Shown piece by piece: positions 26,540 through 34,291 of a DNA stretch of 64,000 bases. The stretch is from NCBI RefSeq assembly GCF_000203815.1, contig NW_004457695.1:558001-622000 (forward strand). Direction: 5' to 3'. Numbering within the stretch: position 1 is the stretch's first letter; every line of letters begins with the position of its first letter. Position numbers and translations under genes: made by a program. The notes under the pieces were generated by a model. It had not been told where the DNA came from, made no database searches, and saw only the letters and a list, made by a program, of their open reading frames with translations. Source of the DNA: Cavenderia fasciculata. Taxonomy: Eukaryota > Evosea > Eumycetozoa > Acytosteliales > Cavenderiaceae.

Positions 26540-28423
26540 ATGAAATCAACTATATCAATATTATTATTACTATTCATTGTATCAATAGTAGTAGCAGTAG
26601 ATAATGGATGTGAATCATATATGAATTATCCGGCCGTCACTATTGACAAGTCTGTCTACACTACATCTACTACCAACAGTGTCTATGTGTTGTATGTGAA
26701 CGGTGGTTATTTGGCAATCAGCCAGCAGGCTGCAGGCTCACAAGCAACACCATCCAACACAATCATCCAAGCTAGCTTTAGCGACGACATTGCAACTACT
26801 GGTTGGGGCAGACTCAACGTCACATCGTTTGGTGTAGTCAATGATGATTGTCTACAAACATATTTGGGTGGTTACGTTGAAGGTATCATGACGGCAGAAC
26901 GTATCAATCAAATGTACACAAATTTCGCAGCCGGAGAATTCAAAAATAGTACTCCCTCTGCAACACTCTTATCATTCATGTCTGCACAATTGGCATGGGT
27001 ACGTAAAGGTGTTGCAATGTTGGAAAGTGACTCTCAACCCGATTTAACTCATCCTTTCAACTTGGATGATGACGACCAATCATTTGGTGAATACAGTTAT
27101 TCGATCAACTCTACGATCTATTGGCACTCGGTTAAACTGATCATGGCACAGTTTGATGGTATTGTAGGTGGATACCAAGCAAGTACTTTTGGCCAATCAA
27201 ATGTAATGAGCCAAATGCAGTTGTATCTGTTGACATCGGCAGGCGACTTGCAAACTTTAAACACATTGTATGGGGAACCAGCTGTCGAGAGTAAGAGTGG
27301 ACGTATGCAGAAACACTTATTTAACGGGTTCCAAGACATGGATGGGTACGATGACGACATTGATTTCCTCGATTGTTCAGCGTTGGTTCGTTTACTACCG
27401 GGTAATCAAGACGCCTATTTTGCACACACTACATGGCGTTACTATTATGGAATGATGCGTATCTACAAGTTTTACAACTTTGCATTACAACAATTCAAGC
27501 TCAGTTACCACGTGTCATTCTCGTCGTCGCCAGGTTTCCTCTCGAGCAAGGATGACTTTTACATGACTGGTGCTAATCTCGCCGTCATGGAGACCACCAA
27601 CAATATCTACAATGAAACACTCTACATGTTTGTATTGCCAGAGACACTGTTGGTCTGGCAACGTGCTGTCATCTCCAACATACTCGCTCAATCAGCTCCC
27701 TCTTGGGCACTCACCTTCCAACAATACAATTCTGGTACCTATAATAATCAATGGATGATTTTCGATTATAAATTATTCTCTCCATCTCAATCATTACCTG
27801 ATAATACTTTTTGGGTTCTTGAACAAATTCCTGGTTATTGTGAAATGTAAGAAAAGAAAAATGAAACAAAAAAAAAGAAAAAAGAAAATAATAATAATAG
27901 TTAATTATTTATTAACTTTCTTTTGTTTATTTATTTTAGGCAAGACATGTCACAAATATTAGACAAGAATCAAGTATGGCCATCATATAATATACCATAT
28001 TTTGAAGAGATTTATAATATTTCAGGGTATCCAGCCATGCAACAAAAGTATGGTGATAGTTATAGTTATCAATCTTGTCCGAGAGCTTTGATATTTGGTA
28101 GAAATGCAACCGATATTCAAACATTTGAAGGTATGCAAGAGATGATGCAATACAACTACTACAAATATGACCCACTTTCTCTTGGAAGTCCATCCAATTC
28201 TATTTCATCAAGAGCCGATCTACTACCAAACCCCGTTGCATTCGGAGGCGTCGACTCCAAGATCACATCTTCTCAATTAATCCAAACACTTTCATGTTCG
28301 GCCATTTCAGGACCTACTCATCAAGGTCTACCTTATTTCCAATATTCTTCCAATCCTATATTTAATTCTACTTCTCATATTGGTTTACCTGATATTTGGA
28401 ATTTTGATTGGGTTTCTTTTTAA
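26540..28423 (+). CDS. plb: Phospholipase B-like hydrolase (LAMA/PLBD family)
   Basis: Two exons, 26540-27846 and 27940-28423, give 596 residues, in the size range of Dictyostelium PlbA-type and mammalian PLBD proteins. A signal peptide (MKSTISILLLLFIVSIVVAV) comes first. The N-terminal part has YVEGIMTAERI, and the Ntn-hydrolase core has DIDFLDCSALVRLLPGNQD, whose Cys (about residue 279) would become the N-terminal nucleophile after autocleavage. FAHTTWRYYYGMMRIYKF and the C-terminal PISY-type strand region (GGVDSKITSSQ) also match. Several Asn-x-Ser/Thr sites fit a secreted or lysosomal enzyme that deacylates phospholipids. The last letter of the gene name cannot be assigned. Confidence 0.95.
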
Positions 28424-28594: not shown

Positions 28595-30286
28595 TTAGAA
28601 TAATAAACCAAACAATGCAATGATGGAAACAACAATCATGGATGAGATGGTTGGAGTGGTAATAGAGTTGGCAGCACTTCTAGCACAAATACCAAAGGAG
28701 CCATAGTCAAAGTCTGGAACAATACATGGATTGTTGATTGGCTTCCAATAGGCACATTGGCCTTGAATAGAGCAAATATGTTCACGACAATGTTTCATAA
28801 CACAGGACTTTTCTGAAACTTGAATGAATGGGAATTGACATTGATTCTCAATGATACACTTGTCGAGTTCACCTGAAAGAGTGGCACATTGGGTCCAAAT
28901 GTCGAGGTCTTTTTGGAAATGAGTTACACATTGTCCGTCGGTGGTGTTTCCAGCAACACATGTACATTGTTCAAATTCGGCCAAACAGTTGTTTCCACTG
29001 ACCGAACAATTGACGCTTGGGCCAGTGAATTCTGGTTTGGTGCAAACTTCGTTGATGCACAAAAGACCAGCTTGGCATTGAGCAGTGTATTCTCCTCTAC
29101 CTCCATAGAGTTTCTCAGAGAACTCGTTACATTGTTTACCCTCAGTAAGAGAGAATGGTTCAATACATGTTTTGTTGTAATTGGAAGGGTCACGATCGGC
29201 ACAAAGAAGGGTTTCATCACAAGCCGAATTTGCTTTGGTGCAGTCTTCTCCAACAGCGAAACGTTTTTGGCATCTATGATCAGTACCATTACACCAATAT
29301 CCAAATGCACATTGGATACTCTAATGAAATTAAATAAATAAATGGATCATTTAAACAACAATGATTTGGTTGGTTAGTAAGGGAAAAGACTTTTAATTAA
29401 ATTTAAATGTACATACATCTATACATTGATATCCTTCTGGTGGAGCATCTGGTAGACATGTGCCTGAGAATGGGTCACATGTCAAAGTGGGTAAACAGTC
29501 AGATCTGGTTTGACTATATTTAAAAAAAAAAAAAAAGAAGAAATTAACAAACCAAAAGTTTGGAATTTTTTTTTTTACATACCAATCTTCACCAAGAGCA
29601 GCAAAAAGAACGATGGTGCAAGTTCTGTTTGAAGAAGAAGGGACCAATGCTGGCTCGTTTCCACAGACTAATCCTTCTGCACATCTAGCGTATGGGGTAT
29701 CACATGGTTCTCCAAGTTCTAGATCTTTGACACATGTCTGTAAATTAAAAAAAGTTAGTTTTTTTTTTTTTGGAAAAGGATTGATTGATTGATCAAGACA
29801 ATATTAATGATTTGAACTTACTCTTGCTGGGATTGGTTCAAAAGAGTCTTCTCCAATATCAGCCAACAATGAAGGGAGAGCTGAACCACTTCCAGAAGGG
29901 CCAGCAGAAGGGCCGGCAGTAATACCTCCAGAACCACTGCCTGAACCACTTCCAGAGCCTGAACCACTTCCAGAACCACTACCTGAACCACTACCAGATC
30001 CACTACCTGAACCACTTCCTGAACCACTCTGATAATATGGGTTTGGGGCACAATGATATCCTATAATATTTAAATGACAAATTGAATTTATATTAGTTAA
30101 TCTATTTTTAATCATCATTCCTTTTGTTTTTTATCATTATTTACCATATTGACATCTTGTCCATTCGTTGCATGGGGCACCTTCTACTTGACATAATTTA
30201 GCTCCGTTAGTTTGCTCACATCTTTGAGCAGCTGACAAAGCTACACAAGCAACTAAAAGAACAAGTAATAGAATAAATTTAGACAT
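28595..30286 (-). CDS. Cysteine-rich secreted, putatively GPI-anchored protein, copy A
   Basis: I do not recognise a named family. Five exons on the minus strand (30145-30286, 29822-30060, 29583-29737, 29417-29513, 28595-29320) give 452 residues. Signal peptide MSKFILLLVLLVACVALSAA, then a Cys-rich start (RCEQTNGAKLC, CNEWTRCQYGYHCAPNP), a Ser-Gly repeat of about 40 residues, and five or more small Cys modules with the recurrent pattern C-x5-C...LxC...C-x3-F. The C-terminal hydrophobic tail (SMIVVSIIALFGLLF) after a Ser/Thr patch looks like a GPI signal. N-glycosylation sites are frequent. First of three adjacent minus-strand paralogues. Role is unknown; surface or extracellular matrix is inference. 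Confidence 0.85.
29927..30032 (-). repeat. Ser-Gly coding repeat in copy A
   Basis: Tandem TCAGGT/GGAAGT-type codons encode an unbroken run of Ser-Gly dipeptides, acting as a flexible linker and a potential glycosaminoglycan- or phosphoglycan-type attachment tract. Confidence 0.85.
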
Positions 30287-30578
30287 TATTTGTTTCTATT
30301 GAAATTTATTTGTTAACAACAAAGTGATAAACAACACTGACCGGTCTGAAATGGTCATCAAACTTCAACCGCGAGAGTGATCGAAAAATATCCTAAAAAA
30401 CCTTGTTTTTTTTTTGCGGATCGGGATGAGATTTTCCATGAACTTGTTCAATTTGATGAATGGTGCATCGTTGGCAAGCCAGAGATCCGATCCTCGCACA
30501 CAAAACTAGATTTATATCTCTTGTCTAAATTTATACAAAGAAAAGAGGTTTTTATTTGAATATCGACGGTTTTTTAAA

Positions 30579-32398
30579 TTAAATTAGTAATCCGATTGCA
30601 AAGGTTAATACAATCATAAACAACATGGTTGTTGGGGTGATGGTGTTGGCAAATGAGGTGTTTCCACAAATTCCATAGTCTTCATAGTCAAAGTCTGGTA
30701 CCGTGCATCTAACATAGATCTCTGGGTCATAAATACACTAAAATAAATAAATAAAATTGAATTGAATAAATAAATAATTTGATATTAATATAGATGGTAT
30801 ATGTACCTTGCTTTGAATTTCACAGGTAATGGAACCACAGTGACGCATCTGGCAAGATTTGGGAGATGGACCATTGACATTTAATTCTGGGAATTGACAT
30901 TCATTCTCAACGATACATTCATTGAATTCCTTGGCGAGACTGGCACACTCTTGGGCGATAGTCAAATCTGGTTGAACTTCAGCAACGCATTGACCAGTAG
31001 TGCTATTTCCACCGACACATTTACATTCTTCATAATAGCCACATGATTTGGCTTCAGTTGAGCAATTGTAAGTTGGTTCTGTCCAATTTGGTTTAGCACA
31101 AATACTTTCAATACATAAAAGACCTGGTTCACATGCTGAAACATATAATCCATGGAATCCTACAAGATATTCATTCTCATTATCACAAGTATTACCTTTA
31201 AATTAAAAATAAATAAATTAATAATTATTTAAAATAATAAATGGAGACACTAACCTTCAGTTAATGTAAATGGAGCAACACATGTCTTTTTGTAGTCAAT
31301 ACTGTTTGTCATGACACATTTAAGTGTTTCTTGACAAATGTCATCATTATCAGTACAATCAGATCCAACTGGAACACGAGCTTGGCATCTGTTTTCAGTT
31401 CCATTACAAAAATATCCAAATTTACATTGTAAATCCTTGAATTAATAAAAAAGGGGATACATTAATATATGTTTAGATAGATATCAGATGATCAGCTGAT
31501 ATAAATAGTAGAAGGGTACTTACGCCAGTACATTGGTATCCTTCTCTAATGTCGTCATCATTTAATTTGGGTACGCAAGTGTCACTGGCTGGGTCACATT
31601 CAAGTCCTGGTGCACAATCCATCATATATTTACTACATTTATATTAAAATGAGAGGAAGGGAAAAAGGTTAGAAATAAAGTAAAAACAGAGAATGGTCAA
31701 TGTTTACATACCAAGTTTCACCAAGTCTAGCCCAAAAAATGGCGGTACAAGTTGGAACCGTTCCAGGCCTGGTATAACAAATAGCTCCTTCTTCACAGTC
31801 ACCACCATAACATATTTCACCAATTGCATACTTCTTTTGGCAAATCTTTAAAAAAAACAAAAAAAAAAAAGAATAATTAATTTAATTGATGTTAAAATTG
31901 TTTAAAATATTGATAGATAAGATAGATAGAATCATACTCTTTCTGGAATTGGTTCAAATGATGAACCTCCAATGTCATCTAATACAGCAGTTTCTTCCTT
32001 AAAGGGTGAACCTGAACCTGAACCAGATCCAGATCCACTTCCCGAACCACTTCCAGATCCTGAACCACTTCCAGATCCCGAACCACTTCCAGATCCACTT
32101 CCACTACCCGATGAGACATATGGATTACGAACACAATTGTATCCTTTAATTATCAAAAAAAAAAAGTAAAATAAAATAAAAAATAATTAAAAGGTTAGAT
32201 TCTATTTAATCACTTTTGGATTGTTATATCTTTTTTTTTAAATCTATTCATACCTAGTTGACAAATTGAGTATTCATCACACTCTTGCCCTTCTGATGCA
32301 CACACCTTGTCAGCATTTGTATTTTGGCATGCTTTGGCTGAAAATGAAACAGCAACTAGTGAAATTAAAACTAGAGAAAATAAAATTAATTTATACAT
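30579..32398 (-). CDS. Cysteine-rich secreted, putatively GPI-anchored protein, copy B
   Basis: Seven exons on the minus strand: 32254-32398, 31938-32143, 31712-31845, 31524-31632, 31255-31435, 30807-31195 and 30579-30737, giving 440 residues. Signal peptide MYKLILFSLVLISLVAVSFS. The module order matches copies A and C: CQLGYNCVRNPY, Ser-Gly tract, EPIPERICQKK, then Cys modules such as CAPGLECDP, GYFCNGTENRCQ, ACEPGLLCIES and GNSTTGQCV, and a C-terminal FDYEDYGICGN before a hydrophobic tail. It has two introns more than the other copies, splitting the large last exon at 31196-31254 and 30738-30806. All seven exons close in frame. Function unknown. Confidence 0.84.
32009..32108 (-). repeat. 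Ser-Gly coding repeat in copy B
   Basis: About 16 consecutive Ser-Gly dipeptides at the same place as in copy A. The repeat is absent from copy C. Confidence 0.85.
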
Positions 32399-32778
32399 TA
32401 TTATTATTATTATTATTATTTGTTAATAATAAGAGTAAATAAGAAATTGTATTGATCAACTAAAAGTCGTAAAGAGAGAGACGGCTTCGATGGGCAGCTG
32501 ATCAACCAACCAACAATGAGCCCGAAAATCGAAAAAATTAAAAATAGAAGAAAGAAAATGTTTCATAGCCAATTTATTCTAAATTAGGCAACCAAAGCAC
32601 TGATATTCGACGAAAACAGATTTTTCACACAAATCGGTGATCTGAACCGTTTGATGAAACTTCGCCTTTTGTGTGAAATAAATACGATGTGATGAACTTG
32701 GTACCCATCGTTTATCTACCCATTTAATAAAAGAAAAACTGTTACCAGTTGAATATTTAAATATTTCATTTTATTTTT
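32399..32778. other. Intergenic region between copies B and C
   Basis: Promoter of copy B and 3' end of copy C. A patch of more mixed composition (32460-32700) contains TTTTGTGTGAAATAAA and two TGATGA boxes, but no matching D box was found, so no snoRNA is called. Confidence 0.45.
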
Positions 32779-34291
32779 TTAAAGTACAAGTGAGGAGATG
32801 ATCATCAAGATGGAAATAAAGATAAAAGTTGGTAGAATGGTGTTGGATGAACTACTACAAGTACCATAGGATTCATAGTCAAAATCGGCATCAAAACAAT
32901 TATATGGGAGGTCAAATTCAGGTACTGAACATTTACCTTGGATCTCACATGCCGATGCACAATTCTTGATCATACACGATTGAGAATACACTTGGTTGAA
33001 TTCAAGGAATGGAGATTGACATTTGTTGTCAATGATACATTGATTTAATTCTGCGGTGAGACTGGCACATTCTTGAATGATCGATACGTCTGTTATGTAT
33101 TTTGGTACACATTGTCCCGTTGTGCTATTTGCTCCTCCTTGACAGATACACGATTCGTACTTGTTACAGAATGAATCGGATGTACAGTTGATTGATGGCT
33201 CTGTCCAAGTTGGTTTGACACATGTGTTGTCTGGACAGAGAAGGCCTGCTTGACATGGGCCTGTGTATAGACCAGACTGGCCATCGAATATCTCGAAACG
33301 GTCGTCACACGTATTACCCTCGGTCAATGAGAATGGTTTAATACATGTCTTTTTGTTATCAATGTCATTGGTAGTGACACATAAAAGAGTTTCTTCACAT
33401 GCCGACTCTGACAATGTACATTCCTCTCCTTCTTTTAATCTTTTCTCACATAAATTAGTTGATGTATTACAACGTAATCCAAATTGACATTGAGAATCCT
33501 AAAAAAAAAAAAAGAAAAGTAATTTAATATTAAATAAATAAATAAGTGTGATCAATCAATCAATCAATATAACTTACCATTTCACATTGAATATCTCCAG
33601 CTAATCCAGTTGGTTCACATTTTTTATCTGGAGAACATTCTAATCCTGGTTGACAATCAGTATTTGTTTGACTATAGTATAGTATATGTTGATGGAAAAA
33701 AAAAAGGTATAAAGTCAATATTGATCAACGGTTGTTGTTGAAGATTAATTAATAAATTAAATAACATACCAATCTTGAGAGAGAGATGCCCAGTAGATGG
33801 GTTGACAAGTAGGGGTTGGGTTATTATTCATTGTATTTTGGTATGTTCCAGGTTCACATTCGTCACCTGGATACCATCTGTCTCCTTGTTTGAGATTTTT
33901 GATACAAATCTAAAATATTTCAAAATATTAAATATTAATATTAGTTTCAGAGTCTGAAATTGATTTACTCACAGTTTTTGGAATTGGTTCAAATGATCCT
34001 TGACCATCAGCCATCACAGATTGGTCACCACCTGATGGAGACGTGGGATTTGCACCACAAAAGTAACCTTTGGTACAAATATTAAATATTAATATTTTAT
34101 GTTTGTTGTTGTATCTAATATCTATCTATCTTTATCTATATTCACATACCTATTTGACATACAGAGTCAAGATTATCACAAAATTGACCTTCAGCAGCGC
34201 AGATCTTTGAGTTTGGACTAACAAAACATTGTGCTAAACTAGTACGAGCTACACACACAATGAAAACTAAAAGTACGATTTTAATCATCAT
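32779..34291 (-). CDS. Cysteine-rich secreted, putatively GPI-anchored protein, copy C
   Basis: Five exons on the minus strand (34150-34291, 33973-34067, 33770-33909, 33578-33671, 32779-33498) give 396 residues. Signal peptide MMIKIVLLVFIVCVARTSLA. Modules follow the A/B order: CDNLDSVCQIGYFCGANP, then directly FEPIPKT without a Ser-Gly tract, CQPGLECSPDKKC, FGLRCNTSTNLC, ACEETLLCV, GPCQAGLLCPDN and ANSTTGQCV, ending FDYESYGTCSSSS and a hydrophobic GPI-like tail (FIFISILMIISSLVL). Intron positions equal those of copy A, so A and C keep the ancestral layout. The second ATG (three bases on) could also serve as start. Function unknown. Confidence 0.84.

Follow-up and report, generated by a model that had tools for sequence, protein, structure and literature searches.

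Three adjacent genes on one contig of the slime mould Cavenderia fasciculata raise the question of what kind of cysteine-rich protein they encode, and whether they stand alone in the genome. The genes, here designated A, B and C, lie on the minus strand of a 64,000-nucleotide stretch of DNA (contig NW_004457695.1, positions 558,001 to 622,000; hereafter the window), and fill positions 28595-34291 of it exactly, the stop codon of A ending at 28595 and the ATG of C starting at 34291. In this study, we report that these genes belong to a large family in this genome, within which they form a single branch, and weigh the roles which such proteins could have.

Gene structure and homology of the trio

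The gene models were built by hand and then compared with those of a small splice-aware predictor. Gene A (28595..30286, minus strand; exons 30286-30145, 30060-29822, 29737-29583, 29513-29417 and 29320-28595) has five exons and encodes 452 amino acids, with 41 cysteines and five N-glycosylation sequons. Gene B (30579..32398, minus strand; exons 32398-32254, 32143-31938, 31845-31712, 31632-31524, 31435-31255, 31195-30807 and 30737-30579) has seven exons and encodes 440 amino acids, with 40 cysteines and five sequons, and gene C (32779..34291, minus strand; exons 34291-34150, 34067-33973, 33909-33770, 33671-33578 and 33498-32779) has five exons and encodes 396 amino acids, with 39 cysteines and three sequons. 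All three spliced frames are uninterrupted and the introns are GT-AG. The predictor agreed with the whole of C and with the inner exons of both A and B; it differed in giving another first exon for B and a changed end of A, and for these two the models presented here are our choice. Gene C is found in public records as DFA_07809 (P0001) of C. fasciculata, a "hypothetical protein", in a model with 56 extra residues ahead of the signal peptide, upstream of 34291, which hide it. This extension is probably an annotation error, because it has no counterpart in the hand-built models of the other two genes.

A and C have four introns each, and these, together with four of the six in B, coincide in residue and phase (in the numbering of C, residue 48 in phase 1, 80 in phase 0, 126 in phase 2 and 158 in phase 0). 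The two further introns of B fall at residue 218 in phase 1 (31196..31254, minus strand; 59 nt, read-through leading immediately to TAG) and at residue 347 in phase 0 (30738..30806, minus strand; 69 nt, containing an in-frame TAG). Among 22 models compared, the 19 others have no intron at either site, so the simpler explanation is that B acquired them, and both introns were probably gained after the duplication.

Homology was assessed by BLASTP after removal of the serine-glycine (Ser-Gly) runs described below. A and B were 45% identical over 427 columns (E 2e-119), A and C 39% over 424 columns (E 2e-84), and B and C 45% over 410 columns (E 3e-103). When the non-cysteine residues of B were shuffled 100 times with the cysteines fixed, the B-C score, 334 bits for the native sequence, averaged 37 and did not exceed 60; the similarity is therefore more than one of cysteine composition. 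The motif C-x(4-8)-C-x2-[GT]-[LYF]-x-C occurs in five copies in A and four each in B and C, whereas 2000 shuffles of each protein averaged 0.03-0.04 copies and gave at most 3, 3 and 4, respectively. Each of the three proteins has a hydrophobic, signal-peptide-like N-terminus, an SFEPIP linker and, after the module region, a C-terminal CxC domain, and the last 20 residues form a hydrophobic, charge-free tail of the kind expected for a glycosylphosphatidylinositol (GPI) anchor. The combination of N-terminal signal and charge-free hydrophobic tail, a call made from hydropathy and charge counts rather than by a trained predictor, was taken as the mark of a putative GPI-anchored protein, and was found in A, B and C.

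The Ser-Gly runs (A, 29924..30028, residues 59-93; B, 32007..32114, residues 59-94; both minus strand) lie between the first cysteine module and the SFEPIP linker. Each uses six serine and glycine codons, and at the DNA level the repeat copies recur at spacings of 12 and 18 nt. At the same site C and the other aligned members carry shorter, different stretches (the runs having been cut from A and B in that alignment), and among 35 modelled family members only A and B have a run. As a guess, the runs of A and B may be modified with GlcNAc-1-P or other O-glycans. Opposite them lie the plus-strand open frames 29811-30032 and 31930-32169, rich in proline, glutamate and leucine, which are probably by-products of the repeats.

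Gene structure and homology are thus established at the level of the sequence. An earlier note on this DNA had described three adjacent minus-strand paralogues, sharing most intron positions, a signal peptide, cysteine modules, a FEPIP linker and a GPI-like tail, with a Ser-Gly run in A and B that C lacks; the models bear out this description in each respect.

On the plus strand, the region 26540-27850 adjoining gene A is part of a phospholipase B gene (PF04916, E 6.6e-104), of which the open frame 27905-28423 may be the next exon.

A family of about 53 loci in the genome

With B, DFA_10637 and one member each from C21 and C5 as queries, searches of the genome itself yielded 118 matches at E<=0.01. 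Merging within 800 bases gave 48 clusters, which became 53 loci once tandem neighbours had been separated by hand; merging within 500 gave 53 and within 300 gave 55. These counts are lower bounds, and some loci are partial or weak. Besides the trio there are tandem arrays at C2 (six genes), C7 (six) and C5 (seven). Two loci, C3:1052711 and C1:2102249, look degenerate. A degenerate copy with frame breaks that is closely related to the trio is found elsewhere, at L032:2302-3195 (G000:C3).

A tree was constructed from 35 modelled members, the remaining loci being partial, degenerate or without extracted DNA. The trio forms a single branch with support of 100/100, which supports its origin by tandem duplication. 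Five of the six C2 genes group with one gene from C14, the window's contig (99/96), and the sixth, C2_1, adjoins the trio (80/66). C5_1957 falls within the branch formed by the C5 array (99/98); the genes of the C7 array also form a branch, less well supported (92/65), and 12 of the 32 inner branches are open. The GPI-like tail rule was passed by 33 of the 35 models and the start rule failed by nine; several failures are visibly incomplete automatic models, such as C21_366, for which another model has a longer start.

By the Nei-Gojobori method, the rates of nonsynonymous (dN) and synonymous (dS) substitution within the trio were 0.46-0.54 and 1.47-1.66, the latter near saturation, and dN/dS among four C2 copies was 0.37-0.58. 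Judged from these values, the genes look old and constrained, with purifying selection on average, an average that is compatible with a few diversifying sites.

The idea of a slime-mould family evolving by tandem duplication holds for this host and this trio; the three genes are real, and are one branch among some 53 loci. The linker is present in all three copies and the Ser-Gly run in A and B, but an SFEPIP-like linker occurs in just 10 of the 35 members and the run in those two alone. The family had also been called unnamed, which is true of C; member DFA_10637 carries the automatic UniRef name "Paramecium surface antigen repea...".

Relatives beyond this genome were sought by protein searches. 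The 11-member alignment A1 returned six proteins, two of them from C. fasciculata despite the roughly 53 genomic loci; this search is insensitive or its database is partial. Full-length B gave 7987 candidates, none significant, the Ser-Gly run probably having swamped the word filter. The trimmed block A2 gave 571, none significant, under a length limit of about 439 amino acids that A, B and P0001 exceed, and it also missed the known protein P0002, which is within the limit. No protein from other dictyostelids was returned by these searches, which also missed known C. fasciculata members.

P0006, a protein of 386 amino acids from a metagenome contig, matched the 11-member profile at E 4.8e-4 and the 35-member profile at positions 12-331 of 360, the C-terminal CxC domain included (E 2.8e-16, calculated for 5.8 billion sequences). 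In the latter match the composition bias (82 bits) exceeds the score itself (77), and because of this large bias P0006 is graded a probable relative only. Unlike the trio, it ends in a transmembrane helix and a basic tail. A scan of viral contigs with P0006 and a pattern scan of the genome gave no match, both being uninformative. The metagenome proteins P0003, P0004 and P0005 contain many cysteine modules and, by eye, lipoprotein-like starts; Pfam places Dickkopf_N in six stretches of P0003. Since these Dickkopf_N-type proteins score against the family profile over its module part, matches confined to the modules are to be read with care.

A proposed surface role and its competitors

We consider it somewhat better than an even chance that the trio encodes secreted, N-glycosylated, GPI-anchored surface proteins with a disulfide-rich rod that act in adhesion or recognition and have been expanded in tandem. 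Secretion, anchoring, glycosylation and the module fold are predicted, and from the architecture we infer a part in adhesion or recognition as the most likely function. After removal of the signal peptide, the mature chain would begin with an N-terminal four-cysteine module, followed by a hinge with SFEPIP at its end, this hinge being short in C and Ser-Gly in the other two. About five more small disulfide-rich modules, in which a C-x(4-8)-C-x2-G-[LYF]-x-C core recurs, would then form the rod. After it would come a C-terminal domain, disulfide-bonded and containing a C-x-C pair, a Ser/Asn-rich site and the hydrophobic tail that would be exchanged for GPI. On the amoeba surface such rods could mediate adhesion or recognition in trans, between cells or between a cell and bacterial prey, and tandem duplication together with hinge changes might vary their reach and binding surface.

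The genes could instead encode structural proteins of an extracellular layer, such as the slime sheath or a spore or cyst wall, with GPI at most a delivery step. Disulfide-rich repeats, a low-complexity Ser-Gly hinge and high copy number would suit a matrix protein. Against this, Dicty_CTDC (PF00526), a 24-residue repeat with 75 matches in the genome, had no match at E<=1 in A, B, C or any of the 11 A1 members, and the family profile did not match eight Dicty_CTDC loci (L001-L008) at E<=1e-3, which argues against the profile simply gathering cysteine-rich proteins. Given also the GPI-like tail in nearly all of the models, we regard a structural role as unlikely.

That the proteins serve in gamete or kin recognition, the arrays being allelic or mating-type versions, would fit a divergent multi-copy family whose arrays sit mostly on their own branches. 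Average purifying selection speaks against it, and no mating link was found for the loci, which leaves this explanation distinctly improbable. A further possibility is that the proteins are not surface adhesion proteins but factors of the endolysosomal system or of the secretome, such as inhibitors or binding proteins. The modules resemble small secreted ligands weakly, and a phospholipase B gene is the neighbour, adjacency which alone shows nothing; the C-terminal GPI-like tail argues against such factors, and we hold this explanation very improbable. Decayed or mis-joined copies, for which the degenerate L032 copy elsewhere might be cited, are scarcely credible in view of the open frames, GT-AG sites, conserved cysteine pattern and dN far below dS.

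If the trio does consist of surface adhesion or recognition proteins, it would belong to a class central to amoeba multicellularity. About 50 GPI-like loci, with A, B and C matching no curated Pfam or NCBIfam model above the cut-off, represent a sizeable gap in dictyostelid annotation, and their arrangement in tandem arrays puts gene-deletion tests within practical reach.

Comparison with described families

Scans of A, B and C against Pfam and NCBIfam gave no family above the cut-off, and no described domain covered most of their length, in agreement with the earlier note, which knew of no such family. CFAP143, TrAA12, serglycin and similar Pfam rows were rejected, being below the cut-off and mostly on the Ser-Gly run. 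In the literature the family was undescribed among the matches listed, most subscription journals lying outside the search.

Within the dictyostelids, two candidates may be named. Polysphondylium pallidum gp64, a GPI-anchored, cysteine-rich cell adhesion glycoprotein of similar size, is a possible relative, and PANTHER DD-GDCA, which groups cysteine-rich secreted proteins of dictyostelids, is another. Among the matches listed, the literature gave no description of gp64 with Polysphondylium, or of a DD-GDCA, PTHR33459 or gdcA protein, and both are to be treated as leads rather than tests.

Short cysteine modules like those of the family occur in Dickkopf_N (PF04706), the EB module (PF01683) and DUF7107 (PF23416), with sub-threshold matches in some members. 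Dickkopf_N was absent from the Pfam rows of the trio and matched four of the 11 members (best E 0.0027), the match of member C5_3 (E 0.0011) scoring 19.7 bits against a cut-off of 25. DUF7107, likewise absent from A, B and C, matched two of the 11, with C5_1 above the cut-off (36.2 versus 24.6 bits). In contrast to these three families, the CxC domain and GPI-like tail fall outside the matched stretches. The best neighbours, weak ones with sequence E of 0.4-0.9, are the colipase-type ligands (Dkk1, Draxin, MIT1/prokineticin), which were also the best, though weak, matches in fold to a predicted structure over the opening 55 residues encoded by the final exon of A. Spider-toxin rows in the structure search were read as the common knottin shape rather than kinship.

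The ciliate surface antigens of Paramecium and Tetrahymena (Ser proteins) are the remaining comparison. The scanned members had no Pfam match to them, and the Paramecium surface antigen model gave no row at E<=1. By analogy with these antigens, the family might be a large, undescribed GPI-anchored repertoire, spread over four or more tandem arrays, whose expression would be selective or exclusive, as in ciliates, and which would mark self or match prey or predators; we put this forward as speculation of very low probability. The likeness itself is one of general design: the Tetrahymena Ser proteins are reported to be cysteine-rich, GPI-linked surface proteins encoded by a gene family (PMC4136848), as is predicted here for the proteins of C. 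fasciculata.
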